A stretch of 64,000 nucleotides of DNA from Azoarcus sp. (lineage in GTDB: Bacteria; Pseudomonadota; Gammaproteobacteria; Burkholderiales; Rhodocyclaceae): the NCBI GenBank assembly GCA_030604735.1, contig JAUVVG010000006.1, forward strand, positions 1-64,000, read 5' to 3'. This document shows positions 10,079 through 28,858 of the stretch, piece by piece. The position numbers were made by a program, and so were the translations under genes. Below the pieces are notes generated by a model. The model saw only the letters and a list, made by a program, of their open reading frames with translations, did not search any database and was not told where the DNA came from. Each line of letters begins with the position of its first letter. The first letter of the stretch is position 1.

Positions 10079-10096
10079 CCCGCCAGCCCCTTGCCG

Positions 10097-12298: not shown

Positions 12299-12485
12299 CG
12301 CCGGATTATCCCATATCCGCCGATCGGCGCCCCATCGCATCCAGGCCTGAGTGCCCGGAACAGGCAAGCGGATCGGCATTGCCACCTGGATCGCAGCGGA
12401 ACCACGATACCGCCTCCGATAACAAACTGCGAACGCCCGCCCATGCGGTAACATCCCGCATCCATTGTCAGCAAACCCTCATCTC

Positions 12486-13385
12486 GTGCCCTCTCTGACG
12501 ACCAAGGTCAATCCTTATCTTCTGCTCACGCTCACCGTGCTGTTCTGGTCGGGCAACATGGTCATCGCCCGTGGCATCCATGAAGCCGTGCCGCCGGTGG
12601 CGCTGGCGTTCTGGCGCTGGATCATCGCCCTCGGCTTGGTGTTGCCTTTCGCGCTACCGCACCTGAAGGCCCAGCGCAATCTGCTGCGCGAGCACTGGCG
12701 CGTACTCGTCATGCTGGGCTTGCTCAGCGTTGGCGGCTACAACACCTTCGTCTATATCGCGCTGCAGCACACGACCGCGACCAATGCCACGATGCTCAAT
12801 TCGTTCATCCCGGTCGCGACGATCGCCTTCGCCTTCCTGCTGCTCAAGAAACGCCTGTCGGCACTCGAGGCGGTCGGGGCCCTGCTCTCTCTCGCCGGCG
12901 TCATGACCATCGTCGCGCGGGGAAGCCTGGAGACACTGCTCGGGCTCAACCTCAACACAGGCGACCTGTGGATGCTTCTCTCGGTAATGATCTGGGGCCT
13001 GTATACCGTGGGGTTGAACTGGCGCCCTGCCAGCATCCATCCGATGTTGATGCTGGCCGCCTTCACCGTTATCGGGCTGACGGCGCTGACGCCCTTCTAT
13101 CTCTGGGAACTGAGTACCGATAGACACATCGACTTGTCCGCAGGCACGCTCATCGCGATCATCTACACCGGCATCTTTCCGGGATTCCTCGGCTATGTCT
13201 TCTACAACGCCGGCGTGGCGGCGGTCGGGCCGAGCAGAAGCGCCCTCTTCATCCACCTGATGCCGGTATTCGGGACGGTCCTCGCGATCCTGTTCCTTGG
13301 CGAGCGACCGCTGTGGTTCCACTTCGTCGGCATCTCGCTGGTCTTCACCGGTATTTTTCTGACAACGCGCAAAGCCCATGCTTGA
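12486..13385 (+). CDS. EamA/DMT family transporter
   Basis: About 299 residues with ten predicted membrane helices in two EamA repeats; the second repeat ends with PVFGTVLAILFLGERPLW, a typical EamA signature. Members export amino acids, nucleotides or other small metabolites; the substrate here is unknown. The start is uncertain. GTG at 12486 is used, but an in-frame TTG at 12465 is also possible and neither has a clear ribosome site. The 3' end overlaps the next gene, mtfA, by 8 nt, which suggests a two-gene operon. Confidence 0.85.
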   Translation: MPSLTTKVNPYLLLTLTVLFWSGNMVIARGIHEAVPPVALAFWRWIIALGLVLPFALPHLKAQRNLLREHWRVLVMLGLLSVGGYNTFVYIALQHTTATNATMLNSFIPVATIAFAFLLLKKRLSALEAVGALLSLAGVMTIVARGSLETLLGLNLNTGDLWMLLSVMIWGLYTVGLNWRPASIHPMLMLAAFTVIGLTALTPFYLWELSTDRHIDLSAGTLIAIIYTGIFPGFLGYVFYNAGVAAVGPSRSALFIHLMPVFGTVLAILFLGERPLWFHFVGISLVFTGIFLTTRKAHA

Positions 13386-14145
13386 AGTCCTGACGAGGTG
13401 GTTCCGCCGTCGCGAACAAGGTGCCCCGTCGATTCCCGAGGCGCTGTGGCAACGCGTCGAGCACAAACTGCCTTTCCTGGACTATCTGTCCGCTGCCGAG
13501 CGAAACCGCTTGCGCACACTCGCGACCCACTTCCTGCAGACCAAGCAGTTTCACGGTGCACAAGGCATGGACCTGACCGACGAGATCATGTTGTCGATCG
13601 CGGTTCAGGCCTGTTTGCCGATTCTGAACATCGGCTTGCGCGCCTACGACGATTGGGTCGGGATCATCGTCTACCCGGGTGATTTCATCGTCCCGAGAAG
13701 CGAGGTGGACGAGAATGGGGTGGTGCACGAATACGACGACATGGTACTGGGCGAAGCCTGGGAACAAGGACCGGTGCTGCTGTCATGGCAGGAGGACGCC
13801 AGCTTGCCCGATGGCATGAATGTGGTGATCCACGAGTTCGCCCACAAACTGGACATGTCCAACGGAGGCGCCGACGGCTTTCCACCGCTCCCTCCCCACA
13901 TGGATCGTGGGGCCTGGTCCGATGCGTTCAGCGACGCCTACGACAGGCTCTGCCAGCAGATAGACCTGGGCCTGCCCACCGCACTCGACCCCTATGCCGC
14001 CGAACACCCGGCAGAATTCTTCGCCGTCGCCTCGGAAGCCTTTTTCGAAACGCCCACCGGATTGCGCAACGCCTATCCAGAGGTCTACCAGCAACTCGCG
14101 TCGTTCTACGGCCTGGATCCGGCCAGTCGAGCGATAGCCCCTTGA
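13378..14145 (+). CDS. mtfA: MtfA-type zinc metallopeptidase
   Basis: A 255-residue cytosolic protein of the MtfA (DgsA anti-repressor, M90 peptidase) family. The zinc motif HEFAH spans residues 152-156, and the third ligand region is in the conserved HPAEFFAVASEAFF segment. Family hallmarks include the N-terminal LPFLDYLSAAER helix and the YPGDFIVPRSEVDENGVVHE segment. E. coli MtfA binds the glucose repressor Mlc and has peptidase activity. Many betaproteobacteria lack Mlc, so the target here is unknown. The start overlaps the DMT transporter gene by 8 nt. Confidence 0.9.
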   Translation: MLEVLTRWFRRREQGAPSIPEALWQRVEHKLPFLDYLSAAERNRLRTLATHFLQTKQFHGAQGMDLTDEIMLSIAVQACLPILNIGLRAYDDWVGIIVYPGDFIVPRSEVDENGVVHEYDDMVLGEAWEQGPVLLSWQEDASLPDGMNVVIHEFAHKLDMSNGGADGFPPLPPHMDRGAWSDAFSDAYDRLCQQIDLGLPTALDPYAAEHPAEFFAVASEAFFETPTGLRNAYPEVYQQLASFYGLDPASRAIAP

Positions 14146-14305
14146 TCAGAAATTGCCGAGTCGTTATCGACCGTCTGAAACATGTCAGATTTGCCAGTCC
14201 GCTACCCCGGGTCTAAGCTGAGAGCGTTGCCTTTCGCAACACGGAGGCTGGTTGGGCTCGCGCTCATCCAGCCTCGGTTCATGTTCAATCGCTCGGAGGT
14301 ACATT

Positions 14306-14746
14306 ATGGCTATTACCTGGATTCTGGTCGCCAACGCCAGCCTTGCCCGACTGTATGAGAACCTCGGCCCGAACAAGGGACTCAAGCTGGTCAAGGAGCT
14401 GATCCACCCTGAAAGCCGATTGAAGAATGCCGAACTCGTCACCGACCGCCCGGGCAGCATGGCCTCGTCCGGCAACGGTCAGGGCGCAAAACAACCCCAG
14501 ACCCAGCCCAAGGAGCACGAAGCCAAGGTCTTCGCGCAGGAACTCGCCCAGGAGCTGTATCAGGGGCGGACCAAGAATGCGTTCGAACGCGCGATCGTCG
14601 TCGCGCCGCCCGCCTTCATGGGTTTGCTCAATACCGTACTTGATCATCCGACCGCGAAGCTGATCACGGACCGCTTCGAGAAGGACTACACCAAATCAAC
14701 CGAGCCACAGTTGAAGGCGCATCTGTCGTCATGCATTTTCGTCTAA
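14306..14746 (+). CDS. Host attachment family protein
   Basis: A 146-residue protein starting MAITWILVANASLARLYE, the N-terminal signature of the 'host attachment protein' family (PF10116). The name comes from an Agrobacterium attachment gene; biochemical function is unknown. The ending (APPAFMGLL, then a conserved LITDRFEKDYTK) resembles the ribosome-rescue (eRF1/Pelota-like) fold suggested for this family, which is only a structural hint. A GGAGG ribosome site lies 6 nt before the ATG. It is monocistronic: it is preceded by 160 bases of non-coding DNA and followed by a terminator. Confidence 0.82.
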   Translation: MAITWILVANASLARLYENLGPNKGLKLVKELIHPESRLKNAELVTDRPGSMASSGNGQGAKQPQTQPKEHEAKVFAQELAQELYQGRTKNAFERAIVVAPPAFMGLLNTVLDHPTAKLITDRFEKDYTKSTEPQLKAHLSSCIFV

Positions 14747-14775
14747 TGGTGGTACTCAGACGATAGGCAGTGCGC

Positions 14776-14800
14776 ACGGGGCTTCGGCCCCGTTTTGTTT
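14776..14800 (+). terminator. Rho-independent terminator after the host-attachment gene
   Basis: ACGGGGC (14776-14782), loop TTCG, and GCCCCGT (14787-14793) form a seven-pair GC-rich stem with a stable tetraloop, followed by TTTGTTT. It lies 30 bases past the stop codon, so it should end that transcript. Confidence 0.85.
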
Positions 14801-14860
14801 AGCGCGGACAATCGCTCGAGACGGCCGTTTCCCCCCGCGCAAGCTCACCCTCTCGAAAGC

Positions 14861-15436
14861 CTACCGAACAGGCGCCACTGCAGCCGGATCGGACGGCCAT
14901 CGAGCCAGGACCTCGTAGTTCGCACCATGGGCCATGCGCCTCGAACGGACCAGGACGAATTCGGTCACCGGCCACACCACGGGCGTGACAGCTTGGCGCG
15001 CAGAAGGCAGTTCGGATTTCCGCAACAAGGTCAGGTGCGGCGTGAAGCCACGCCGCTCGACCGGAAAACCCTGCGCTGACAGCGCGTCCCGCAGCGTCGC
15101 GGCGAATTCCGGCAGCACGGCGGACGGCTCGCTACAGCCGACCCAGGCGATGTCGTTGTGTGGCCATCGATCGATGAAATCGAGCCGGAGCTCGAAGGAC
15201 GGGAGACGGATCGCGGCACCGATCGCTTTCAGCGCGTCGAGCCGTCCGGCTTCGACCTCACCGACGAAAGCCAGCGTCAAGTGAAGCGTATCGAGGCGCA
15301 TCGAGCGCGCAGCCGGCCCTTGCTTCAGTGGGCGACCGATCTGGTGCAGACGACGCGCGACATCCGGTGGCGGCCACAGTGCGAAGAAGACCCGCAGCGA
15401 CTGATCGGACGATTCAGCCGTCCTGGCCGGTGCCAT
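14861..15436 (-). CDS. thpR: RNA 2',3'-cyclic phosphodiesterase (2H family)
   Basis: A 191-residue two-histidine phosphoesterase that opens 2',3'-cyclic phosphates to 2'-phosphomonoesters (ThpR/LigT). The two catalytic motifs are HLTL at residues 52-55 and HLTL at 134-137. The most likely start is the ATG at 15436, inside the end of ispF (23-nt overlap); no start codon lies nearer the conserved [10 protein letters not shown] segment. The overlap implies translational coupling with ispDF, though the biochemical link is unclear. Confidence 0.87.
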
Positions 15437-15932
15437 CGCCGTGTTTCGCGAGCAGGACCACGACTTGCGCCGCGATCCCCTCTCCCCGGCCGGTAAAGCC
15501 CAGTTTCTCGGTGGTCTTGCCCTTGACATTGACCACCTGTTTGCAGATACCGAGGTCTTCGGCGATATGGGCGACCATCGCCGGCACATAGGGCAGGATC
15601 TTCGGTGCGCGACAAATCACGGTCGCATCGATGTTGACGACGGCGTAGCCGCATCCAGCCACGGCCGCGAAGGCCTGCCTCAGCAGATGGCGGCTGTCCG
15701 CGCCGGAATGGGCCGGATCGGTGTCCGGGAACATCCTCCCGATATCGCCCAGACCAGCTGCCCCGAGCAAGGCATCGGTCAAGGCGTGGAGCAGTACATC
15801 GGCGTCCGAATGGCCTAGCAAGCCCATGGGAAACGGAATCCGAACACCGCCGATGATCAAGGGTCGCCCACTCACCAGTGCGTGGACATCGAATCCTTGT
15901 CCGATACGGAAAGGAACGGTCGGAACAGACAT
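15414..15932 (-). CDS. ispF: 2-C-methyl-D-erythritol 2,4-cyclodiphosphate synthase
   Basis: The fifth enzyme of the MEP isoprenoid pathway: it cyclises CDP-methylerythritol phosphate to MEcPP with release of CMP. The 172-residue protein has the zinc ligands D15 and H17 in FDVHAL, a third in [11 protein letters not shown] (H49), and the C-terminal [14 protein letters not shown] motif. Its ATG overlaps the ispD stop codon by one base. The product feeds the same isoprenoid pool that uppS in this window uses. Confidence 0.96.
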
Positions 15933-16633
15933 CAGGCCTCCCGGTTACGCAGAATCCACTCCGCCAGATGGAGGTCGAGCGGATAGGTCACTTTGAGATT
16001 GGTCGCATCGGATTGCACCAGCTTGGGGTGCAGTCCGGCCGCTTCGATCGCGCTCGCCTCGTCGGTCACCTCCCTGGCCTGCTCGAGCGCACGCCGCAGC
16101 ATCACATAGCGGAACATCTGCGGTGTCTGGGCCTGCCACAGGCTTTGCCTGGGAACCGTCCGGATCACATGGTCGCGTTCGTCAGATTGCTTCAGCGTAT
16201 CCGCGACCGGCACCGCGAGCAGCCCCCCGACTTCCTCATGCGAAACCTCGCGGATCAGCTTTTCGACATGCCATGGCGCGATGCACGGTCGCGCAGCGTC
16301 ATGCACCAGTATCCAGTCGGACTGTTCGGCCCGATCCGAGATGGCCCGCAGTCCACCCAGCACGCTGTCGGCCCGAGTCGCCCCCCCGCAGAACAGCGGC
16401 ACCAGCTTGTCGCCCAGGCCGGACCAGTCATGTTGGCGCCACTCGGCATCATCTACCGACAGGACGACGAAGACCTTGTCGATCTCGGGCAGTCCGCATA
16501 GCACCGACAAGGCATGGTGGATCAATGGCCTCCCGAGCAGACTAAGATACTGCTTGGGCCGTTCCGAACGCATCCTGCTGCCTGCACCGGCGGCGGGGAC
16601 GATGGCATAGTGTTTTGGGCGAAATGGCTGCAT
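15932..16633 (-). CDS. ispD: 2-C-methyl-D-erythritol 4-phosphate cytidylyltransferase
   Basis: The third enzyme of the MEP pathway: it makes CDP-methylerythritol from MEP and CTP. The 233-residue protein carries the nucleotide-binding PAAGAGSRM (13-21) with the following Lys, VHDAARPC, and TPQMFRY. The start is ATG 16633. An upstream frame extension to 16696 lacks family similarity and overlaps the promoter region of the next operon. It overlaps ispF by one base, forming an ispD-ispF-thpR operon. Confidence 0.95.
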
Positions 16634-16684
16634 GCGGCGGATATTAGCCTGAAAGCCGGGGTGGCGAGTCACTGCGCGCCGCCC

Positions 16685-16715
16685 TTGCATGCGCATGACC
16701 AGAACGGCCTATACT
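16685..16715 (+). promoter_or_regulatory. Putative sigma-70 promoter for the Memo/AMMECR1/radical SAM operon
   Basis: TTGCAT (16685-16690) and TATACT (16710-16715) are separated by 19 bases. The -10 element is a good match and the -35 is moderate with a long spacer. The predicted RNA start would be about 48 bases before the Memo-type gene. Confidence 0.4.
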
Positions 16716-16769
16716 GAAGATAAGGAACACGACGCCTGAAACCCTGTTCTTGCTGGAGGCATTCGGCAT

Positions 16770-17603
16770 ATGGCCACTGCTTCGATTCGCCCGCCCGCCG
16801 TCGCCGGTTTATTCTATCCGGCCGACGCGCGCCTGTTGCACGATCAGGTCGTCGACCTGCTCGCACGCGCCAGGCTGGATGACATCGATCCTGTCCCTGC
16901 ACCCAAGCTGTTGATCGTACCGCACGCCGGCTACATTTATTCCGGTCAGACTGCAGCCCGTGCCTATTCGCACATCGCCGGGCTGCGAGAGCGCATCAAC
17001 CGGGTCGTGCTCCTCGGACCGGCCCACCGGTTACCGGTGCATGGATTCGCCTTGCCCGCATCCTTGAGCTTCGCCACACCGCTGGGTGTCGTCCCGCTCA
17101 GCCAGAAAGACTGGAAGGTCTTGCAGCAACGCGACGATGTGGTGGTCGATGACCGCCCCCATGCCGCCGAACATTGCCTCGAAGTTCAGCTCCCTTTCCT
17201 GCAGACGGTGCTCGGCCACTTCGAGCTGGTCCCGGTACTGGTGGGCGCCCCTTCGCCCGAGGCGGTCGAGGACTTGCTCGACATGCTGTGGGGGGGAGAC
17301 GAGACCTTGGTCGTGATCAGCTCCGATCTGTCCCATTTCCATCGTTACGACCAGGCGCGGACGATGGATCGCAGGACGATCGACGATGTGATGCACTTGC
17401 GGTCCCGCATCACCACCGATCAGGCCTGCGGGGCATACCCGGTCAATGGCGCGCTGAGAGCGGCGGCGCGGCGGGGGCTGGAACCGGTCCTGCTGGACCT
17501 GTGCAACTCGGGCGATACGGCCGGTGACCGCAGCAGCGTGGTCGGCTACGCCAGTGTCGCTTTTTGCGGGAGAAACGAAGTCCATGCCGGCAGCAGACAC
17601 TGA
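16770..17603 (+). CDS. amrB: AmmeMemoRadiSam system protein B (MEMO1 family)
   Basis: A 277-residue homologue of human MEMO1, related in fold to class III extradiol dioxygenases. Likely metal-site residues are H52 in VPHAGYIYSG, the His of LGPAHR and the Cys of DLCNSGDT. HAAEHCLEVQLPFLQ and SSDLSHFHRY are further family blocks. A GGAGG site lies 12 nt upstream of the ATG. The gene overlaps the AMMECR1 gene by 20 nt, which in turn overlaps the radical SAM gene. This three-gene association is widespread in bacteria and archaea, but its biochemical product is not established. The domain call is secure; function is not. Confidence 0.92.
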   Translation: MATASIRPPAVAGLFYPADARLLHDQVVDLLARARLDDIDPVPAPKLLIVPHAGYIYSGQTAARAYSHIAGLRERINRVVLLGPAHRLPVHGFALPASLSFATPLGVVPLSQKDWKVLQQRDDVVVDDRPHAAEHCLEVQLPFLQTVLGHFELVPVLVGAPSPEAVEDLLDMLWGGDETLVVISSDLSHFHRYDQARTMDRRTIDDVMHLRSRITTDQACGAYPVNGALRAAARRGLEPVLLDLCNSGDTAGDRSSVVGYASVAFCGRNEVHAGSRH

Positions 17604-18225
17604 CCCCCCATACACTGACTCCCAAGACGAGATCGGGCCGGTCCTGCTTGCCCGGGCACGCAGTGCGATCGCACGCCATCTCGGCTTGCCGACCGACGTG
17701 CCCCCCGCGCCCGACTGGCTCTCCCGGCGTCGTGCCACTTTCGTGACCCTGACCCGGCACGGCGAGCTCAGGGGCTGTATAGGCAGTGTGCGTGCGCAAC
17801 GTCCCCTGGGTGACGATGTCGAGGCCAACGCGGTCGCGGCCGCCACCCGGGATCCCCGTTTCCCGCCACTCAGTGCCGACGAGTTTGCCGACATCCAGGT
17901 CGAAGTCTCGCTGCTGTCCGAGCCCGAGTTCATCGAGTTCGGAGACGAAGCGGCACTGGCGGCGCAAATCCAGCCAGGCAAGCATGGTGTCATTCTTTTT
18001 TCCGGATGCCGCAGCGCAACCTTCCTGCCCCAGGTCTGGGAACAGTTGCCGACCCCCGAAGCCTTTCTGGCGGCCCTGAAGCAAAAGGCCGGTCTGGACC
18101 CTCGAAGGCCAGCGCCCAAGCTGATGGCCGCGACCTATACAGTCCAGAAATGGTCCGAGGCAGACTCGTCGAGGGAGATGGCACGGCGATCGGGCGGAAC
18201 ACCGAATGAGGAGAAGTCGAGATGA
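17584..18225 (+). CDS. amrA: AmmeMemoRadiSam system protein A (AMMECR1 domain)
   Basis: A 213-residue AMMECR1-domain protein with the invariant LRGCIG motif at residues 62-67 and the following ATRDPRFPPLSADEF block. The cysteine in LRGCIG is conserved from archaea to human AMMECR1; catalysis has not been shown to my knowledge. The ATG at 17584 lies inside the end of the Memo gene and the stop overlaps the next ATG, so all three should be co-translated. About the last 20 residues are charged and probably disordered. Confidence 0.9.
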   Translation: MPAADTDPPYTDSQDEIGPVLLARARSAIARHLGLPTDVPPAPDWLSRRRATFVTLTRHGELRGCIGSVRAQRPLGDDVEANAVAAATRDPRFPPLSADEFADIQVEVSLLSEPEFIEFGDEAALAAQIQPGKHGVILFSGCRSATFLPQVWEQLPTPEAFLAALKQKAGLDPRRPAPKLMAATYTVQKWSEADSSREMARRSGGTPNEEKSR

Positions 18226-19301
18226 GCGCCATGCATCCGGCCAGGTACTGGCACGCGATCGAGGACGGTCGGATCCAGTGTGATCTGTGTCCTCGCTACT
18301 GCAAGCTTCACGAGGGCCAGCGCGGCGCTTGTTTCGTGCGGATGCGCGAACACGAGGGCATGGTCCTGACTACTTATGGCCGCAGCTCGGGTTTTTGCAT
18401 CGATCCGATCGAGAAGAAGCCCCTCAACCACTTCCATCCCGGGAGCAGCGTGTTCTCGTTCGGCACCGCCGGCTGCAACCTCGCCTGCAAGTTCTGTCAG
18501 AACTGGGACATTTCGAAATCGAAGGATATGGACCGCCTGATGGAGTCGGCTTCGCCGGACGAGATCGCTCGAACGGCAGCCCGCCATGGATGCAAGAGTA
18601 TCGCCTTCACCTACAACGACCCGGTGATCTTCGCCGAGTATGCGATCGATGCCGCCAAAGCGGCGCATGCGATGGGTTTGAAAACCGTTGCGGTGACGGC
18701 CGGCTACATCACCGAACTGGCGCGAGGCGATTTTTTCGAGCACATGGATGCGGCCAACGTCGATCTCAAGGGGTTCACCGATGAGTTCTACGTCCGACTT
18801 TGCGGCGCCCGCCTGCAGCCGGTGCTCGACACGCTGGTTTGGCTGGTTCATCACACCGATGTGTGGATAGAGATCACGACCTTGCTGATACCCGGCCAGA
18901 ATGATTCGGATGAAGAGTTGACCGCCTTGTCGCGTTGGGTCAAGAATCATCTCGGTCCTACCGTGCCCCTGCATTTCACTGCGTTCCATCCCGATTTCAA
19001 GATGTCGGACATTCCCGCGACGCCGCGCGCCACCTTGACCCGCGCCCGCGCGATCGCACTGGGTGAAGGTTTGAAACATGTCTATACCGGTAACATCCAC
19101 GATCGTGAGGGGGGTACGACACGCTGCGCCGCATGTGGAGAGGCGCTGGTCGTCCGTGACTGGTACGAGATCATCGATTACCGACTCGACCCCAACGGTC
19201 ACTGTCCTCAGTGCGGAACGCCTCTGGCCGGACGATTCTCCCAGTACAAGGGCGCGTTTGGCGCCCACCGGGTACCGGTGTCGATCCACCGCATCAGCTG
19301 A
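18222..19301 (+). CDS. amrS: AmmeMemoRadiSam system radical SAM enzyme
   Basis: 359 residues, resembling pyruvate-formate-lyase-activating enzymes. The radical SAM cluster motif CNLACKFC gives C85, C89 and C92. A Cys-rich N-terminus (C20, C23, C27, C37) and a C-terminal pair of CxxC knuckles (CAAC and CPQC near the end) could bind zinc or a further Fe-S cluster. The start ATG overlaps the AMMECR1 stop codon (ATGA). No glycyl-radical enzyme lies nearby, so a PFL-activase role is not supported. The natural partner is presumably the Memo and AMMECR1 proteins encoded just upstream. Confidence 0.93.
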   Translation: MSAMHPARYWHAIEDGRIQCDLCPRYCKLHEGQRGACFVRMREHEGMVLTTYGRSSGFCIDPIEKKPLNHFHPGSSVFSFGTAGCNLACKFCQNWDISKSKDMDRLMESASPDEIARTAARHGCKSIAFTYNDPVIFAEYAIDAAKAAHAMGLKTVAVTAGYITELARGDFFEHMDAANVDLKGFTDEFYVRLCGARLQPVLDTLVWLVHHTDVWIEITTLLIPGQNDSDEELTALSRWVKNHLGPTVPLHFTAFHPDFKMSDIPATPRATLTRARAIALGEGLKHVYTGNIHDREGGTTRCAACGEALVVRDWYEIIDYRLDPNGHCPQCGTPLAGRFSQYKGAFGAHRVPVSIHRIS

Positions 19302-19316
19302 CCAGGGTGGTGCCCG

Positions 19317-20090
19317 GTGAAGCTGCGTCACGCCATCGTCAGCATCCCGACCGAAGGGGTGTGGCTGGACGGACGCCTGTCTCACGCGCCGGATGTTCGC
19401 GCGCTGGCCATCCTCCTGCTGGCCAGCGCTGTTAGCCGCGACAATCCGCCGGAATCGTCGATTGCCGGTGAGCTACAAAAGGCCGGGTTCGCGACCTTGC
19501 TGATGGATCTGGTCACCCACCAAGAGGATGAACGCGATCCGGATGCGCGTTTCAATGTCCCACAGATGACCCGGCGCCTGCTCGGCGTGATGGACTGGAT
19601 CGGACACCAACCCGCGCTGCAAGGGCTGCCGGTCGGCCTGATCGGGTCTGCTACCAGCAGTGCGGTCGCGGTACGCGCCGCGTGGAAGGCGCCGGACCGA
19701 TTCGGGGCCATCGTGTGCCGGGGAGGTCGCCCCGACCTGGCCGGTGCCGCTCCGCTCAGGGCCTTGCGCACACCTGTTCGTTTCGTGGTCGGCACGACCG
19801 ACCCTGACCGGGATATCGCCGCTCAGGCTTTTGCGCTGATCGAAGCCGAGCGGGACTGGCAGGACATGGACACCGACGCCGATCTCGTCCCTGGTCCCGA
19901 CGGTGGGGACGAGCGACAACTCGACGCTCGCATCGGGATCACCGACTTCTCGTCTCATGTGATTACCTGGCTGACACAGACCCTGCCGCGGCCAGAGACA
20001 CCCGAGATCCAGGGGGTGGCAGTCGATGCGACCGGGGCCGACCAGGCAGAATCCATGGCCGATCGAAGTCCCGTCAACCCGCAAGGATGA
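19317..20090 (+). CDS. Alpha/beta-hydrolase-fold protein with altered nucleophile elbow
   Basis: 257 residues with the general layout of small dienelactone-hydrolase-like proteins: ILLLASAV (oxyanion strand), GFATLLMDL, then GLIGSATSSAVAVRAA. In relatives the elbow usually reads GxSTG, with the nucleophilic Ser third. Here Ala occupies that position and Ser precedes it, so the normal nucleophile seems displaced or lost. The C-terminal SSHVITWL could hold the catalytic His. The last 40 residues look unstructured. It starts with GTG 15 bases after the radical SAM stop codon, so it may belong to that operon. Function is unknown. Confidence 0.65.
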   Translation: MKLRHAIVSIPTEGVWLDGRLSHAPDVRALAILLLASAVSRDNPPESSIAGELQKAGFATLLMDLVTHQEDERDPDARFNVPQMTRRLLGVMDWIGHQPALQGLPVGLIGSATSSAVAVRAAWKAPDRFGAIVCRGGRPDLAGAAPLRALRTPVRFVVGTTDPDRDIAAQAFALIEAERDWQDMDTDADLVPGPDGGDERQLDARIGITDFSSHVITWLTQTLPRPETPEIQGVAVDATGADQAESMADRSPVNPQG

Positions 20091-20099
20091 TTCCGGACA

Positions 20100-20687
20100 T
20101 TGCTTCGCACCCTTCTCGCTTCCCTCGCCTGCCTCGCGCTACTCAGTGGCTGCACCACCGTGCTGATCCCGCCATCGGCGCCGACCGACCCGGTCAGCGT
20201 CTTCGTCCTCGACCATGGGCAGCACAGCAGTCTGTTACTGCCGACCGAAGCGGGTGGCGCGGTGCGTTATTCCTATGGCGACTGGGCCTACTATGTCGAG
20301 GACCGCAAAAGCGTGTTCAACGGGTTTCGGGCCTTGCTCTGGCCGACCCGTGCGGCACTCGGGCGCCAGGATATCGCGGCGACACCCGACGTCGGCGCCC
20401 TGTCCCGCCAGATCGGCCTGGTCGTCATCGATGCGCATGAGATCCAGGTCGAACGGACAGACGTCCTCCAACTCCATCTGAAGCTGACCCGGATGTTCAC
20501 CGACTCGCCCCACGAACCGATGCCGGCCACGAGCAATCCATCGCACTTCGTCGAGCATCCGGTGCGCTACAGTCTGGCTCACAACTCCAACCATGTCGTC
20601 GGTCAGTGGCTGACCGAGCTTGGCTGCGACGTGATCGGGCGACCGCTACTGTCAACCTGGCGTGTCATGCCCCCGGTCGTGGATTGA
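20100..20687 (+). CDS. DUF2459-like lipoprotein
   Basis: 195 residues with a lipoprotein signal and lipobox LSGC (Cys18). The mature part has FVLDHGQHSSLLLP, YGDWAYY and HNSNHVVGQWLTELG. These recall the DUF2459 family, whose members have a conserved His near the N-terminus and an HN-x-N block near the C-terminus. The start is TTG at 20100, supported by an AAGGATGA ribosome site overlapping the end of the previous gene. It is the last gene of the rightward run; its stop is 3 bases from that of the convergent SulP gene. Biochemical role is unknown. Confidence 0.65.
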   Translation: MLRTLLASLACLALLSGCTTVLIPPSAPTDPVSVFVLDHGQHSSLLLPTEAGGAVRYSYGDWAYYVEDRKSVFNGFRALLWPTRAALGRQDIAATPDVGALSRQIGLVVIDAHEIQVERTDVLQLHLKLTRMFTDSPHEPMPATSNPSHFVEHPVRYSLAHNSNHVVGQWLTELGCDVIGRPLLSTWRVMPPVVD

Positions 20688-20690
20688 TGC

Positions 20691-22277
20691 TCAGGCGGCG
20701 CATGCCTCACGCGCCGAAGCGAGCGCCGAATCGAGATCATCGCGCAGGATCTCGCTACGCAGATGCGGTGCGTTCAGGCGCACAAACTGGTCCCGTATCC
20801 GGGCTGGCACGGCGACGAAGGCCGGGATGCCCATGGCGGTCAGACGTTCGACCATTTCCTCCAGCGCGAACAGGGCCGACAAGTCCATGAACGGGACCCT
20901 AGTGCAGTCGAACACGACCGCGCGCGTGCCCATCACCTGGTCGACCCGGTCGAGTAACTGACTGGTGGAGCCGAAGAAAAATGGCCCGGACACCTCCAGC
21001 ACGCGCACATCACCCTGCATACCGCTGCCGTCGGCTTCCTGCTCGGCCGGCCAGACCCGGAAACTCGCCTGCTGGATCAGCTGATGAATGATCAGCCCCA
21101 TCGACAGCGCGACCCCGGCACTGACCGCGACGATCAGATCGACGAACACGGTCAGCAGGAAAACCGCGGTCATCACGGCGATGTCGGTACGTGGGGCGGT
21201 CTTGAGCAGTCGCAACAAACGGTAGTCAAGAATATCGACCCCGACCTTGATCAGGATACCCGCCAGCACTGCCAGCGGGATCTGGGTCGCGAGTGGCGCC
21301 GCACCCAGCAGCAGCGCAAACAGGAACAGGGAATGGACCACGCCCGACAAGCGTGAATGTCCCCCCGCCTTGATGTTGACCACGGTGCGCATGGTCGCCC
21401 CGGCACCGGGCAGGCCGCCGACAAAGGCACACAAGACATTGCCCACGCCTTGGCCGATCAACTCCCGGTTGGGTTGATGACGGGTGCGGGTGACCGAGTC
21501 GGCAACCAGCGAGGTGAGCAAGCTGTCGATGCTGCCCAAAAGCGCCAGCGTCACCCCAAGGACAAGAATGGTCGTCCAGGTGTCCAGGGTGAACTGCGGT
21601 ATCTGCAGTTCCGGCAGTCCCATCGGAATCTCGCCGATGACCGGTACCGCGAATCCCGCCACCACTGACAGCAGCGTCATCGAAATCAGCGCGACCAGCG
21701 GCGCCGGGACGATGCGGCTAACCGACATCGGCATCCGAAAGACGATGAGCAGCGTCAGCAACGACAGCAACAAGGCCTGCCCGTCGATGCTGGCGAATAC
21801 TTGAGGCAAGCGGACGATCGCCGCCAGTGGCGAAGCCTGTGGCGCCACCCCGAACGCCGGGCCGAGCTGGAGCAGGATGATGATCACCCCGATCCCGCTC
21901 ATGAAACCGGACACCACCGGGTACGGGATGAATCGCACCAGCCCGCCCGCCTTGACCACACCAAGCAGGATCTGGATCACCCCTCCGACCACGACCGCCG
22001 CCATCGCCGCTGCCAGATTGCCTCCGACCGCGACCAGCACCGACGCGAACACGACGGTCATCGGACCGGTGGGGCCGGATATCTGCATTCGGGTGCCACC
22101 CAGGAGCGCCGCGATCAAGCCGAGGACGATCGCCCCGTACAAGCCGGCGGCCGCACCGGCCCCGGACGCGACGCCGAACGCCAGCGCCAGCGGCAACGCG
22201 ACGATCCCTGCGGTCAAACCACCAAACAAATCGGCCCGCAGTCCCGCCTGCGAAACCTCTCCCCTTTTCATGGTCAT
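20691..22277 (-). CDS. SulP family inorganic anion transporter with STAS domain
   Basis: About 528 residues. A SulP transmembrane core of many hydrophobic segments (SGPTGPMTVVFASVLVAVGG, then GLPGAGATMRTVVNIKAGG) is followed by a C-terminal STAS domain (about 415-528; VFDCTRVPFMDLSALFALEEM). Members carry sulfate, bicarbonate or dicarboxylates; this short bacterial type includes BicA-like bicarbonate transporters and sulfate permeases. The substrate is not evident. ATG at 22277 or 22271 are both plausible starts. It lies convergent to the lipoprotein gene and divergent to the glutathione-reductase-type gene. Confidence 0.88.
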   Translation of the reverse strand: MTMKRGEVSQAGLRADLFGGLTAGIVALPLALAFGVASGAGAAAGLYGAIVLGLIAALLGGTRMQISGPTGPMTVVFASVLVAVGGNLAAAMAAVVVGGVIQILLGVVKAGGLVRFIPYPVVSGFMSGIGVIIILLQLGPAFGVAPQASPLAAIVRLPQVFASIDGQALLLSLLTLLIVFRMPMSVSRIVPAPLVALISMTLLSVVAGFAVPVIGEIPMGLPELQIPQFTLDTWTTILVLGVTLALLGSIDSLLTSLVADSVTRTRHQPNRELIGQGVGNVLCAFVGGLPGAGATMRTVVNIKAGGHSRLSGVVHSLFLFALLLGAAPLATQIPLAVLAGILIKVGVDILDYRLLRLLKTAPRTDIAVMTAVFLLTVFVDLIVAVSAGVALSMGLIIHQLIQQASFRVWPAEQEADGSGMQGDVRVLEVSGPFFFGSTSQLLDRVDQVMGTRAVVFDCTRVPFMDLSALFALEEMVERLTAMGIPAFVAVPARIRDQFVRLNAPHLRSEILRDDLDSALASAREACAA

Positions 22278-22402
22278 CTCATGTTTCTCGCGACACGATT
22301 GAACTGAAAAAAACGGACCCATAAACCAAAGCCTCCGACTGCGCTGGCCTCGTCCCTCCTCCCCTTGCTTTTCTGTCCGAGGCAGCGCGATCGGGCGTCA
22401 AC

Positions 22403-22408
22403 TATAGT
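22403..22408 (+). promoter_or_regulatory. Possible -10 element of the glutathione-reductase gene
   Basis: TATAGT preceded by GTCAAC. The same context (GTCAAC then TATAAT) occurs upstream of mfd at 24198. No good -35 was seen. The transcript would have a leader of about 110 nt. Confidence 0.3.
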
Positions 22409-22524
22409 GCGACTTTTCCCCCTGCACCGGAGAATCGGAGTCACACGAATGCACGACAGCGGGCTCGATCTGGGTAGGATAGGGGCTATGGCACTCCAGA
22501 ACCGCATTATTCACGAGAACCTCC

Positions 22525-23904
22525 ATGAACGATTTTGATTGCGACCTCTTCGTCATCGGCGCCGGCTCGGGCGGCGTGCGTGCAGCCCGTGTCGCCGCGC
22601 GCCTCGGGGCGAAAGTCACCATCGCCGAGAATCACCGCTTCGGCGGAACCTGCGTCATCCGGGGTTGCGTGCCCAAGAAGCTGATGGTCTACGCCTCGCA
22701 CTTTCGCGACGATTTCGAAGATGCCGTCGGTTTTGGCTGGTCGTCCGCTTCGCCGAGTTTTTCCTGGCCTTCGCTGATCGAGACCAAGAATCGAGAGATC
22801 TCACGCTTGAGCGACCTCTACCGGCGCCTGCTGTCCGATGCGGGCGTCACCTGCGTGGAAGGCAGCGCGCGGGTAGTCGCACCGCAGAGGGTGGAAGTCG
22901 ACGGGCGTCGCTTCACGTGTCGCCACATCCTCATCGCAACCGGTGGATGGCCGTTCAAACCGGACATTCCTGGTGCGGAACACGCGCTGACCTCCAACGA
23001 GGTATTCGAACTGCCCGAACAGCCGCGTCGCATCCTGATCGTGGGCGGGGGCTATATCGCGGTCGAGTTCGCCGGAATCTTCCACGGTCTCGGATCGGAG
23101 GTCACCCTTAGTTATCGCGGCGATCGGATTCTGCGCGGCTTCGATCAGGATGTACGCACACACCTGGCGAACGAGATGCGCAAAAAGGGCATCTCGATCG
23201 CGCTGAACAGCGACCTGGAGGCGATCCACAAGCGTACCGACGGACGCCTCGACCTGCAGGCCAGTGGCATTGCCGGGGCGGATCGCCCCTACGATGCGGT
23301 GATGTTCGCGACCGGCCGCGTACCGAACACCGGCGGCCTCGGGCTGGAGTCAGTCGGCGTGAAGCTGGACAAGCAAGGCGGCGTGGTCGTCGATGCGTTC
23401 TCGACCACCAATATTGCGAGCATCCATGCGGTCGGCGACGTCACCAACCGGATCGCGTTGACGCCGGTCGCGATTCGCGAAGGGCAGGCGCTGGCCACCA
23501 CCTTGTTCGGCGGCACGCCGACTTCGCCCGATCACGACTGTGTGCCCTCTGCGGTATTCAGCCAGCCCCCCATCGGCACGGTCGGCCTGACCGAAGAAGA
23601 TGCACTCGCACGACATGGCGAAATCGATATCTACACCACCCGTTTTCGGCCGATGCGGCACACCCTGTCCGGCCGGGACGAGCGCACCTTGATGAAGTTG
23701 ATCGTCGACACCGCCAGCGACAAGGTGGCGGGTGCCCACATGGTCGGGCCGGACGCGGCGGAGATCATCCAGGGCATCGCGATCGCGTTGAAGATGGGGG
23801 CCACCAAGGCCGACTTCGACGCGACCGTCGGCATCCACCCGACCGCCGCGGAAGAGTTCGTCACGCTGCGGGACCCGGTACGCAAACGTCGATCTGCGCA
23901 CTGA
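22525..23904 (+). CDS. gor: Glutathione reductase (NADPH)
   Basis: A 459-residue class I flavoprotein disulfide reductase. FAD-binding GAGSGGVRAAR starts at residue 12 and the redox disulfide C43/C48 is in GGTCVIRGCVPKK. The NAD(P) fold has VGGGYIAVEFAG, followed by an SYRGDRILRGFD segment with arginines typical of NADPH use. The C-terminal base motif HPTAAEE is present. These favour glutathione reductase over lipoamide dehydrogenase or mercuric reductase. It reduces oxidised glutathione in the cytoplasm. The gene stands alone. Confidence 0.92.
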   Translation: MNDFDCDLFVIGAGSGGVRAARVAARLGAKVTIAENHRFGGTCVIRGCVPKKLMVYASHFRDDFEDAVGFGWSSASPSFSWPSLIETKNREISRLSDLYRRLLSDAGVTCVEGSARVVAPQRVEVDGRRFTCRHILIATGGWPFKPDIPGAEHALTSNEVFELPEQPRRILIVGGGYIAVEFAGIFHGLGSEVTLSYRGDRILRGFDQDVRTHLANEMRKKGISIALNSDLEAIHKRTDGRLDLQASGIAGADRPYDAVMFATGRVPNTGGLGLESVGVKLDKQGGVVVDAFSTTNIASIHAVGDVTNRIALTPVAIREGQALATTLFGGTPTSPDHDCVPSAVFSQPPIGTVGLTEEDALARHGEIDIYTTRFRPMRHTLSGRDERTLMKLIVDTASDKVAGAHMVGPDAAEIIQGIAIALKMGATKADFDATVGIHPTAAEEFVTLRDPVRKRRSAH

Positions 23905-24233
23905 TCACACTAGCGGGCACGGCATCGGTCCACCCCTGATCATGAAAGCCACCATGCCCGCTTCCCTCACCCCCAGCCCCTCGCTCCGCGCCCCACGGGC
24001 CGGTTTGCACACCGACCCGGCTTCAGCGGCACAAAGCAGGCTTTGCGAAACCCCGCCTTCGCGCACGCGGGCGAGGGGGAGCTTAGTGAGTCGCCAGGGC
24101 GACTTTCACGCCAGCCGTTTGCCGCGGTCGACTTGCCGCAGCTGGCTTGCTGCACTCGGCTAGCGGCTGGCCCCGGACGTAAAGATCGCACGTCAACTAT
24201 AATGCCGGTCCCTTCCCAGCCCAGAAGTACGCC
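23905..24233. repeat. Gene-free stretch with degenerate C-rich/G-rich palindrome
   Basis: This 329-base gap between gor and mfd has no credible gene. A C-rich arm (CCCTCACCCCCAGCCCCTC, 23963-23981) is complemented imperfectly by a G-rich arm (GGGCGAGGGGGAGC, about 24069-24082), with the middle expanded by about 90 bases. It resembles a disrupted copy of the intergenic palindrome family suggested at 2511. The 3' part carries the likely mfd promoter. Confidence 0.4.
24198..24203 (+). promoter_or_regulatory. -10 element upstream of mfd
   Basis: A perfect TATAAT lies 30 bases before the mfd ATG, preceded by GTCAAC. The -35 region is poor, so either the promoter is activator-dependent or the extended upstream context compensates. 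Confidence 0.45.
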
Positions 24234-27200
24234 ATGTCCCGGCCGACCGCCAGTCTACCCGCCGTGCTGACCTCGCCCAAGCTCCCGGCCCCGGGCAGCC
24301 GCGTCGTGCTATCCGGCCTGAGCGGTTCGTCGGATGCGATCGCGATCGCCCAACTGGCGGCGCAGGGCCGCACCCTGCTGCTGGTCTGCGCCAATCCGCT
24401 CGACGCGCAACGCCTCGCCGACGAACTGGCCTGGGTCGCCCCGGAACTGCGTACCCACCTGCTGCCCGACTGGGAGACGCTGCCCTATGACAGCTTCTCA
24501 CCGCATCAGGACCTGATCTCGGAACGGCTGTCTACCCTGTATTCGCTGACGCGGTCCGAGACCGACGTGGTGTTGGTGCCGGCCTCGACCGCGCTGTACC
24601 GGATGGCGCCGCCGTCCTTCATGGCGGCCTACACCTTTTTTCTGAAGCAGGGCGAGACACTCGATCTGGATCGCCTGCGCGAACAGATGGCGGTGGCAGG
24701 CTATGCCCATGTCGCCCAGGTCGTCAGCCCAGGCGAATTCTCGGTGCGGGGCGGCCTGATCGACTTGTATCCCATGGGTGCCGCCCTGCCCTACCGCCTC
24801 GATCTCTTCGACGACGAGATCGAAAGCATCAAGACCTTCGATCCGGACACCCAGAGGACGGTCTATCCTGTGCCCGAGATCCGCATGCTGCCGGCCCGCG
24901 AGTTTCCGCTGGACGATTCCGGCCGTACCCGTTTTCGCAGCCGTTTCCGCGAAACCTTCGAGGGCGACCCGTCACGCGTTTCGCTGTACAAGGATGTCTC
25001 CAACGGCATCGCGCCGGCTGGCATCGAGTACTACCTGCCCTTGTTCTTCGACCAGACCGCCACCCTGTTCGACTATCTGCCGGCAGACGCGGTCGTGATA
25101 TTGCATCACGACGTCCCGACCGCGATCGACGAGTTCTGGCGCGACACCCGCTCCCGCCACGACTTGCTCAAGGGCGATCGCAGCCGCCCGGTGATGCCGC
25201 CGGAAGCCTTGTTCCTGAGCCAGGAAGATTTTTTCGTCGCGCTGAAGACCCGACCGCGCATCGTCATCGACGCGACCCGGACCGAGGTGGAAGAGACGAG
25301 GCAAGCGGTGGCCGAAGTCCTGCCCTTGCCCGATGTCGCAGTGGACCGCAAGGCGACCGACCCCTTGCACAAGCTCAAGGCCTATCTGGCCAGCGACCGA
25401 ATCACAGCCGGAACCCGGGTGTTGATTCTGGCCGAAAGCGCCGGTCGTCGCGAGACCATGACCGAGTACCTCGCCGAGTACGGTCTGAAGCTACCGGCGG
25501 CGAGCGATCTCGCCGGCTTTCTGGCGAGCGATTCATCGGCCGCGCTGGGGATAGGCCCCCTTTCGGCCGGCTTCGAGTTGCCGGCGGCGGGCTTCGCCCT
25601 GATCACCGAAACCGAGCTCTATGCCACCACCGCCAGAACCCGCCAGCGCCGCGACAACCGCAAGGCGGCGACGATGGAGGGCTGGCTGCGCGACCTGTCG
25701 GAGCTCAAACCCGGCGATCCGGTGGTGCACGTCGCGCACGGCGTGGGCCGCTATACCGGGCTGATCCACATGGATCTCGGCGAGGGCGACACCGAGTTCC
25801 TGCATCTCGAGTATGCCAACGGCGACAAGCTCTACGTGCCGGTGTCACAACTGCATGTGATCACCCGCTACGCTGGCGCGGACCCGGAGGCAGTCGCACT
25901 GCACAGGCTGGGCTCGGGGCAGTGGGAGAAAGCAAAGAAGAAGGCTGCGCTCCAGATCCGGGATACCGCTGCCGAGTTGCTGGCGCTCTACGCCCAGCGG
26001 GCGACCCGCCCGGGCCACCGCTTCGACTTCAAGCAGCATGACCTCGATGCTTTCGCCGAGGGGTTCGGCTTCGAAACCACCCCTGACCAGCAGGCGGCGA
26101 TCGACGCCGTGGTAGACGACATGCGAAGCGGTCGCCCGATGGATCGCCTGGTCTGCGGCGACGTCGGTTTCGGCAAGACCGAGGTCGCCCTGCGCGCCGC
26201 CTTCGTCGCAGTGGCCGACGGCAAGCAGGTTGCGGTGCTGTGTCCGACCACCCTGCTCGCCGAGCAGCACTGGCAGACCTTCTCCGACCGCTTCGCCGAC
26301 TGGCCGGTGAAGGTCGCCGAGCTGTCCCGCTTCAAGTCGGCCAAGGAACAGGCCGAAGCCTTGAAGCTGCTCGCCGAGGGCAAGGTCGACATCATCATCG
26401 GCACCCACCGCCTGCTGCAAAAGGACATCCAGTTCAAGCGCCTGGGCCTGGTCGTCATTGACGAGGAGCATCGCTTCGGCGTCCGTCAGAAGGAAGCGCT
26501 GAAAACCTTGCGCAGCGAGGTGGACATCCTGACCCTGACCGCAACCCCGATTCCGCGCACGCTCGGTCTTGCGCTCGAAGGATTGCGCGAGTTTTCGGTG
26601 ATCGCGACCGCACCACAGAAGCGGCTGTCGATCAAGACCTTCGTCCAGCGCTACAGCAAGGGCATCGTGCGCGAAGCCGTGCTGCGCGAATTCAAGCGCG
26701 GCGGACAGGTGTACTTCCTGCACAACGAAGTCGACACCATAGACAACATGCGCAACAGCCTGGCCGAGCTGCTGCCCGAGGCGCGCATCGCGGTCGGCCA
26801 TGGCCAGCTCCCCGAGCGCGAGCTCGAGCGCGTGATGCGCGACTTCACCCAGCAGCGGGCGAACCTGCTTTTGTGCACGACCATCATCGAGACCGGGATC
26901 GACATTCCCACCGCCAACACCATCATCATCAACCGGGCCGACCGTTTCGGCCTGGCCCAGCTGCACCAGTTGCGCGGGCGGGTCGGCCGCAGCCACCACC
27001 AGGCCTATGCCTACCTGCTGACCCACGCCGATGGCAAACCGACCCCGAATGCGCAGAAGCGGCTGGAAGCGATCACGATGATGGAAGACCTGGGCGCCGG
27101 TTTCTATCTGGCGATGCACGATCTCGAGATCCGCGGCGCCGGCGAGGTGCTGGGCGAGAACCAGTCCGGCGAAATCCAGCAGATCGGCTTCTCGCTCTAC

Positions 27201-27716
27201 ACCGAGATGCTCAAGCGCGCGGTGCGCGACCTTCAGGCCGGCAAGGAACCGGACCTGACCCAGCCGCTGGAAGTGGTCTCCGAGATCAACCTGCACAGCC
27301 CGGCCCTGTTGCCCAACGACTACTGTCCCGATGTACAGGAGCGGCTGACCCTGTACAAGCGACTCGCCAACTGCGACACCGAAGACGAGTTGCGCGACCT
27401 GCAGGAAGAGTTGATCGACCGCTTCGGTGACATGCCGGTGCAGACCCAGACACTGATCGAGACCCATCGATTGAGGATGCTGGTGAAACCATTCGGGGTG
27501 AACAAGCTCGATGCCTCCGACGCACAGCTCAGCATCCAGTTCGCCGCCGATGCGCCCATCGATCCGGCCAAGGTGATCTTCCTGATCCAGAAGGACAAGC
27601 ACACCCGGATGGCCGGCCCTGACAAGCTGATCCGGCGGATCGACCTGCCCCACATAAAACAGCGGGTACAGGCCGCGCGCGAGCTGCTTGCCGCCGTCAG
27701 CGCCGATAAACACTAG
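24234..27716 (+). CDS. mfd: Transcription-repair coupling factor
   Basis: A 1160-residue Mfd that removes RNA polymerase stalled at DNA lesions and recruits UvrA. The UvrB-homologous N-terminus (DWETLPYDSFSPHQD, GEFSVRGGLIDLYP), the RNA-polymerase-interacting domain (about 480-560; GDPVVHVAHGVGRYTGL), a RecG-like translocase with Walker A GDVGFGKTE at about 642-650, the DEEH box near 741 and TATPIPRTL, and the C-terminal D7 domain are all present. Length is close to E. coli Mfd (1148 aa). The next gene starts 10 bases after the stop. Confidence 0.97.
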   Translation: MSRPTASLPAVLTSPKLPAPGSRVVLSGLSGSSDAIAIAQLAAQGRTLLLVCANPLDAQRLADELAWVAPELRTHLLPDWETLPYDSFSPHQDLISERLSTLYSLTRSETDVVLVPASTALYRMAPPSFMAAYTFFLKQGETLDLDRLREQMAVAGYAHVAQVVSPGEFSVRGGLIDLYPMGAALPYRLDLFDDEIESIKTFDPDTQRTVYPVPEIRMLPAREFPLDDSGRTRFRSRFRETFEGDPSRVSLYKDVSNGIAPAGIEYYLPLFFDQTATLFDYLPADAVVILHHDVPTAIDEFWRDTRSRHDLLKGDRSRPVMPPEALFLSQEDFFVALKTRPRIVIDATRTEVEETRQAVAEVLPLPDVAVDRKATDPLHKLKAYLASDRITAGTRVLILAESAGRRETMTEYLAEYGLKLPAASDLAGFLASDSSAALGIGPLSAGFELPAAGFALITETELYATTARTRQRRDNRKAATMEGWLRDLSELKPGDPVVHVAHGVGRYTGLIHMDLGEGDTEFLHLEYANGDKLYVPVSQLHVITRYAGADPEAVALHRLGSGQWEKAKKKAALQIRDTAAELLALYAQRATRPGHRFDFKQHDLDAFAEGFGFETTPDQQAAIDAVVDDMRSGRPMDRLVCGDVGFGKTEVALRAAFVAVADGKQVAVLCPTTLLAEQHWQTFSDRFADWPVKVAELSRFKSAKEQAEALKLLAEGKVDIIIGTHRLLQKDIQFKRLGLVVIDEEHRFGVRQKEALKTLRSEVDILTLTATPIPRTLGLALEGLREFSVIATAPQKRLSIKTFVQRYSKGIVREAVLREFKRGGQVYFLHNEVDTIDNMRNSLAELLPEARIAVGHGQLPERELERVMRDFTQQRANLLLCTTIIETGIDIPTANTIIINRADRFGLAQLHQLRGRVGRSHHQAYAYLLTHADGKPTPNAQKRLEAITMMEDLGAGFYLAMHDLEIRGAGEVLGENQSGEIQQIGFSLYTEMLKRAVRDLQAGKEPDLTQPLEVVSEINLHSPALLPNDYCPDVQERLTLYKRLANCDTEDELRDLQEELIDRFGDMPVQTQTLIETHRLRMLVKPFGVNKLDASDAQLSIQFAADAPIDPAKVIFLIQKDKHTRMAGPDKLIRRIDLPHIKQRVQAARELLAAVSADKH

Positions 27717-27725
27717 GGAATACCC

Positions 27726-28784: not shown

Positions 28785-28858
28785 ACGGCATCGGCCACGC
28801 CCGCATCCCGACCTTCGCGGTACAATTCGCCCTCCTTGCTGCACGCGGAGCCCCAGCC

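Follow-up and report, generated by a model that had tools for sequence, protein, structure and literature searches.

The AmmeMemoRadiSam system is already known as a three-gene core encoding Memo, AMMECR1 and a radical-SAM enzyme, and its reaction is uncharacterised. The proteins span archaea to bacteria. Memo has a human counterpart in MEMO1, and AMMECR1 has a human counterpart too. In aromatic catabolism, dienelactone hydrolases act after ring-cleavage dioxygenases. A passage of a 2020 paper calls Memo-Ammecr1 systems recently described (PMC7159879). At the level of titles and abstracts, no literature was found on a hydrolase partner of the system or on the AmmeMemoRadiSam reaction, and the pair may be reported elsewhere. 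The locus analysed here lies in 64,000 nucleotides of an Azoarcus sp. genome (assembly GCA_030604735.1, contig JAUVVG010000006.1, positions 1 to 64,000; the window hereafter), which comprises 4.06 Mb in 99 contigs. Its named relatives (Aromatoleum, Thauera, Zoogloea and Rhodocyclus) put it in the Rhodocyclaceae, taken broadly (the family hereafter). At positions 16770 to 20687, the window carries a complete AmmeMemoRadiSam operon with all three core genes intact and a lineage-specific accessory set, consisting of a degenerate hydrolase-fold gene and a lipoprotein gene. The hydrolase-fold family occurs in an intact form (class I) and a degenerate form (class II, including the window protein). 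We favour, at a probability of about 45%, a reading in which the class II protein serves the complete core as a non-hydrolysing partner.

Operon layout and core assignment

The operon resembles the described system in that all three core proteins score over the NCBIfam cut-offs, the genes follow the order B, A and radical SAM, and they overlap each other. Memo (system protein B; 16770..17603, + strand), of LigB-type fold, reaches 262 bits against TIGR04336 (cut-off 26) and 157 bits against the Pfam Memo model. AMMECR1 (system protein A; 17584..18225, +) carries an LRGCIG motif with Cys65 and scores 185.4 bits against TIGR04335 (cut-off 99). The radical-SAM enzyme (18222..19301, +), with extra conserved cysteines at both ends, scores 627.3 bits against TIGR04337 (cut-off 220). 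An earlier note, made from the sequence alone, had named these three families, and the model matches bear it out. The window operon differs from the described system by two additional genes, neither of which is matched by any NCBIfam model. The hydrolase-fold gene (19317..20090, +) starts with GTG 15 bases after the radical-SAM gene, and the DUF2459-like lipoprotein gene (20100..20687, +) starts with TTG 9 bases after the hydrolase-fold gene. Within the core, the AMMECR1 and radical-SAM genes overlap by 4 bases. The Memo and AMMECR1 genes overlap by 20 bases given an AMMECR1 start at the ATG at 17584, the frame being open from a GTG at 17524. All five genes are co-directional, and the coordinates confirm the gaps and overlaps that had been reported for them.

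A hydrolase fold with intact and degenerate forms

The fourth protein of the operon found no match among Pfam and NCBIfam models at E<=0.001. Its AlphaFold2 model has a mean predicted local distance difference test score (pLDDT) of 89.6, and the best match in the PDB (rank 1) is the dienelactone hydrolase 2o2g, with a target template modelling (TM) score of 0.90 and 29% identity. An alpha/beta-hydrolase fold of the 2o2g type is hence predicted for the window protein. The fold is that of the dienelactone hydrolase-like family of 2o2g (Anabaena variabilis), but the window copy is without the HGSGSS motif and without both catalytic residues, the nucleophile Ser and the His. Alignment of 77 relatives, divided on the nucleophile and His columns, separated the two classes. 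All 35 class I rows carry SRGGRPD and the H of HGSGSS together with the nucleophile Ser and the His, and members match 2o2g by sequence at E 8.7e-89. From the other 42 rows, three cut by contig ends were dropped (L157, L176 and L212), which left 39 rows, with two genomes counted twice, once from each collection. Both Ser and His are missing in 36 of the 39, while L151 keeps the Ser, and L084 and L108 keep a His.

The window protein reads GSATS in place of GASTG, with Ala at the nucleophile column and Asp at the His column, the latter falling in a region with an insertion. The GRPDLAG loop (residues 137-143, after strand 6) is retained in the window protein. Across class II, the first G and the final A of GRPDLA are present in 39/39 rows, the L in 35/39 and the D in 34/39. 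From the residues at these positions, we infer that class II is a pseudo-hydrolase. The earlier note had described the fourth protein as odd; alignment, structure model and PDB match together make it a catalytically degenerate dienelactone-hydrolase fold. The Pfam DLH cut-off is passed by the class I proteins of L119 and L146 and by the class II protein of L150.

In the tree, a supported branch (Shimodaira-Hasegawa approximate likelihood ratio test, SH-aLRT, 97) sets apart 37 rows, every one of them class II, and the class labels change 2 times, compared with 24.8 in shuffles. Two class II copies (L074 and L134) group with class I. Three family genomes (G004, G053 and G041) hold a class II copy no more than 5 kb after the core, and each has a class I copy at another place. 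Rhodocyclaceae class II is under purifying selection, with ratios of nonsynonymous to synonymous substitution rates (dN/dS) of 0.15-0.38 in five pairs, which partly overlap and include three within one Zoogloea trio. The corresponding range for five class I pairs is 0.06-0.22. The idea that class II is a pseudogene is rejected, since its frames are intact and dN/dS is far below 1 in 5/5 pairs. Measured against the radical-SAM protein, divergence is faster in class II than in class I. The mean protein distance of class II is 1.43 versus 0.38 for the radical-SAM protein at the same 27 loci, and that of class I is 0.48 versus 0.32 at 25 loci.

Recurrence beside the radical-SAM gene

The hydrolase gene is a recurrent neighbour of the radical-SAM gene. 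In a first sample of the window genome and 100 relatives (101 genomes), the radical-SAM model was over its cut-off in 65. These 65 radical-SAM loci were compared along with some 6 kb of surrounding sequence, contig ends permitting, and gene content was read by hidden Markov model searches of six-frame segments. Hydrolase protein matches were present in 44 of the 101 genomes, some being other hydrolases. A scan of genome_contigs with the hydrolase gave no match. Directly 3' of the radical-SAM gene and on the same strand, the hydrolase gene was found in 23 of 45 evaluable family loci (two further family loci, cut by contig ends, are outside the 45) and in 5 of 18 other loci of the order. A larger sample of 249 family genomes contains 182 with the radical-SAM gene and 143 with the hydrolase. 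Among the matches listed for this sample, 148 genomes have a radical-SAM place, and in 91 of them the hydrolase comes next on the 3' side, at a gap of 8 to 242 bases (median 72). Presence is associated as well, with the hydrolase found in 122/182 genomes with the radical-SAM gene versus 21/67 without it (Fisher p 6e-7, kinship uncorrected). Among 80 named loci, 73 were evaluable and 32 have the hydrolase directly after the radical-SAM gene. The earlier note had regarded the two downstream genes as chance neighbours should adjacency prove rare in other genomes. For the hydrolase gene, adjacency is not rare.

Genomes without the radical-SAM gene

The hydrolase occurs without the radical-SAM gene in 21 family genomes, of which 20 were inspected (G500 was left out). 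Memo, AMMECR1 and the hydrolase are consecutive in G453 and G458, the radical-SAM gene being missing. G498 keeps AMMECR1 and the hydrolase, with Memo gone at the locus. None of the three has a TIGR04337 match genome-wide. The three genomes (loci L270, L272 and L271, respectively) are near-complete and represent two genera. The AMMECR1 stop overlaps the hydrolase start in both G453 and G498. Two further genomes retain parts of the operon without a radical-SAM gene at the locus, G440 with Memo and the hydrolase, and G377 (52% complete) with Memo, AMMECR1 and the hydrolase.

The cysteine of the RGCIG motif is present in 142 of 145 AMMECR1 proteins, and the only exceptions are G453 (Ser), G498 (Ser) and G458 (Arg). 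The 145 proteins comprise 141 from radical-SAM loci, where some genomes occur in both collections, and four from loci without the radical-SAM gene. AMMECR1 is found in 6 of the 67 genomes without a radical-SAM gene, namely G453, G458, G498, G377, G420 and G437. In G420 the contig ends just after the radical-SAM start, in G437 it ends inside AMMECR1, and both keep the RGCIG cysteine. The Memo protein of G453 lacks the invariant Glu of HxxEH, as judged by eye. Loss of the radical-SAM gene is thus accompanied by drift at the active sites of the core, and the hydrolase is retained.

Proposed role and alternative explanations

We suggest that the core would make or turn over one cytosolic small molecule or protein modification. 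The radical-SAM enzyme, which is similar to pyruvate formate-lyase (PFL) activases, would act at, or by way of, the RGCIG cysteine in AMMECR1, and one step would take place at the metal site of Memo. The class I hydrolase would act on an ester- or lactone-type intermediate of the core pathway. Class II would no longer hydrolyse but still serve in binding or as a partner, more closely linked to Memo and AMMECR1 than to the radical-SAM step. The hydrolase would have started out on an ester-like intermediate, and in Rhodocyclaceae it would later have been kept as a binding partner. By analogy, the pairing of Memo and hydrolase may resemble the sequence of dioxygenase and dienelactone hydrolase in aromatic catabolism. 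The lipoprotein rides in the same gene set, with a putative tie to the core. A more specific version holds that the RGCIG cysteine would be the site of the radical-SAM enzyme, freed upon loss of the enzyme, and the neighbour an ex-hydrolase binding subunit of a Memo-AMMECR1 complex outliving the radical step. We regard this version as unlikely.

A number of observations weigh against the favoured account. Loss of the cysteine stems from two genera only (g48 and g57), and G377 keeps it without a radical-SAM gene at the locus. The cysteine is also carried by all three archaeal AMMECR1 structures (PDB chains 1wsc, 1zq7 and 1vaj, which have LRGCIG in common with the window protein). Haloferax volcanii matches the AMMECR1 model and is not among the controls matching the radical-SAM model. 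The RGCIG cysteine can therefore have another reason. The hydrolase is absent from 60 of the 182 family genomes with the radical-SAM gene. In 15 of the 20 inspected genomes without that gene, the hydrolase has neither Memo nor AMMECR1 beside it, and it therefore does not need the system. Nine of these 15 have ispD upstream, and 14 are class II; the inspected G042 copy is class I, a second G042 copy being outside the inspected set. As a general feature of AmmeMemoRadiSam, the hydrolase is rejected. Among 91 phylum-sample genomes over the radical-SAM cut-off, the pair occurs only in the window, in a search with a class I profile (E<=1e-10, up to 12 candidates scored per genome) that very degenerate copies could escape. 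The link between hydrolase and core ends beyond the order. Outside the order, 5 of 10 phylum-sample loci show the hydrolase family either fused with a phosphoribosyltransferase or next to one.

Chance neighbourhood of the hydrolase is rejected by the adjacency and presence counts. The idea survives as an explanation by synteny, given that the slot is itself conserved and that the gene can be retained on its own. The fourth gene might then be a resident of the ispDF-mfd slot with a function of its own, inherited in order beside the core. Most Rhodocyclaceae loci compared have the operon beside ispD and often mfd, and the majority of class II copies are preceded by ispD or followed by mfd. In the window, these borders are the divergent ispD (15932..16696, - strand; Pfam IspD 225.5 bits) and mfd (24234..27716, +). 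The hydrolase still occupies the slot in G014, G051, G057 and G059, which have no TIGR04336 and no TIGR04337 match. Moreover, 22 of the 45 evaluable system-bearing family genomes lack the hydrolase as a direct neighbour, and in two of them (G037 and G041) it lies 4.5-5.7 kb downstream. Against inheritance in the slot, 20 of the 32 adjacent named loci have neither ispD nor mfd in the flank compared (up to 8 kb), and 12 have one or the other. Upstream sequence of at least 6.8 kb is available for 15 of the 20, the other five being on short contigs, and records from Nitrosomonas, Gallionella, Thiobacillus, Methylotenera and Hylemonella are among the 20. Class I is adjacent to the radical-SAM gene in members of six other betaproteobacterial families (Nitrosomonadaceae, Gallionellaceae, Thiobacillaceae, Methylophilaceae, Sulfuricellaceae and Comamonadaceae). 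Adjacent pairs share the strand, with short gaps of -19 to 224 bases between matched domains, and the enrichment of the hydrolase with the system, uncorrected for kinship, likewise argues against mere inheritance of order. Placement of the hydrolase is partly a matter of conserved order only. As a full account of the fourth gene, we consider the synteny explanation somewhat unlikely.

Alternatively, a phosphoribosyltransferase could be the older partner of the fourth gene, with the AmmeMemoRadiSam core joining the pair in betaproteobacteria. The ten phylum-sample loci examined come from 14 genomes with a hydrolase match. Class I hydrolase and phosphoribosyltransferase form a one-frame fusion in two of these loci, in opposite domain orders, and are adjacent in three (L253, L256, L254, L260 and L261 in all), which suggests an older functional pair. 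Of 136 evaluable loci, some from genomes in both collections, 19 also have a phosphoribosyltransferase gene no more than 6.5 kb beyond the 3' end of the core. The gene is on the opposite strand in 18 of the 19, and the search for one at positions 10001-30000 of the window found none. Few class II loci show such a gene. The core as a late addition to this pair appears improbable. At seven loci (L066, L119, L146, L154, L170, L174 and L198), an opposite-strand phosphoribosyltransferase is located within about 170 bases after the hydrolase match.

A class II protein alive with a new activity via other pocket residues (Asp or Gly at the nucleophile place, the retained acid D162 and the conserved E70, R78 and R87) would fit the Gly in 23/39 and Asp in 12/39 rows at that place, the invariant E70 and R87 and nearly invariant R78 and D162 in a mixed alignment of 27, and the purifying selection, but class II has no nucleophile or catalytic His in common and diverges fast compared to class I, so that we hold this to be very doubtful.

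Under the favoured reading of class II as a non-hydrolysing partner of the core, a hydrolase with intact and disarmed forms offers, together with the genomes in which the radical-SAM gene is gone, a practical way into operon function. A vague question narrows to one cysteine, one protein pair and one enzyme activity that class I should have and class II should not.

Conservation of the core proteins

Memo residues H52, H86, E134, H135, D186, H189 and C220 are present in 130/130 aligned homologues, and H131 in 129/130. The window protein matches human MEMO1 (PDB 7kq8) at E 6e-15. A passage on MEMO1 gives H49, H81 and C244 as ligands of the metal (iron) (PMC11081632). H52 and H86 of the window protein align with the iron ligands H49 and H81, and D186 and H189 align with D189 and H192, whereas the region of the third ligand C244 failed to align. 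The candidate place 245 is Cys in the window, and it is Arg in 89/130 and Cys in 38/130 bacterial homologues. With the third ligand unaligned and this place mostly Arg, the metal site of bacterial Memo may therefore differ from that of human MEMO1.

The radical-SAM enzyme carries the CX3CX2C motif (C85, C89 and C92) and nine further cysteines, five on the N-terminal side (C20, C23, C27, C37 and C59) and four on the C-terminal side (C302, C305, C328 and C331). Each of these cysteines is conserved in at least 97% of 143 aligned homologues, in an alignment where some genomes occur in both collections. Extra cysteines at both ends had been noticed before, and their conservation substantiates the observation. 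The closest solved radical-SAM relative is the pyruvate formate-lyase activating enzyme 3c8f (nearest PDB chain, E 3.5e-7). The window protein differs from such activases by two extra cysteine clusters and by scores far below their cut-offs. No activase model is over its cut-off, and the best one, PFLA, reaches 58.7 bits compared with 231.75. On contig C58 of G002 (L107 and L141), two radical-SAM copies lie about 21 kb apart, one of them split into two overlapping frames. Ten second-copy radical-SAM matches of the phylum sample (L292-L301) contain one in-frame TGA each, for which selenocysteine was considered and rejected. The translated loci identify the TGA as the normal stop of a shorter paralogue, past which the match had run.

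The DUF2459-like lipoprotein

The last protein of the operon has the lipobox LLSGC and matches DUF2459 (PF09601) at 25.1 bits, under the Pfam cut-off of 27. The gene was found in 4 of the 101 genomes, the window included, always in this operon and directly following the radical-SAM or the hydrolase gene. No relative was detected in the 80 named loci with a profile from two operon members. Recurrence of the lipoprotein gene with the three-gene set, as envisaged in the earlier note, holds insofar as all four copies lie in this operon, and fails in that the gene is confined to 4/101 genomes. The operon proteins resemble DUF2459 by the weak match and by keeping the His of the GxH motif. They differ in the TCN motif, where Cys is replaced by Ser in 4/4 operon members versus Cys in 6/6 canonical DUF2459 proteins of the same taxa. 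The place of the catalytic Cys was derived from this alignment, which excluded the match of a seventh genome in two pieces. DUF2459 is placed among papain-like proteins in a section of PMC10318531. The operon lipoprotein is probably an inactive papain-fold protein. By eye, a lipobox is present in all four operon lipoproteins, which look exported. Both accessory proteins of the operon look disarmed, judging from the residues at their presumed active sites. The suggestion that the downstream genes could point to localisation finds no support here. The lipoprotein is missing from nearly all relatives, and no export signal was seen by eye in Memo, AMMECR1, the radical-SAM enzyme and the hydrolase-fold protein.

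Genes flanking the operon

A SulP-type transporter gene (20691-22322, - strand), convergent with the operon, and a reductase-like gene, named from reading the sequence, separate the lipoprotein gene from mfd in the window. Many family loci (e.g., L088, L096 and L114) have a membrane protein gene (cluster c1) between ispD and Memo that is missing there in the window, and we take it to encode a DUF4010 protein. A few family loci have a gene of cluster c13, presumably SprA, after the hydrolase and before mfd. The last operon stop of the window lies 3 bases from the end of the convergent SulP-type transporter gene (20687-20691).

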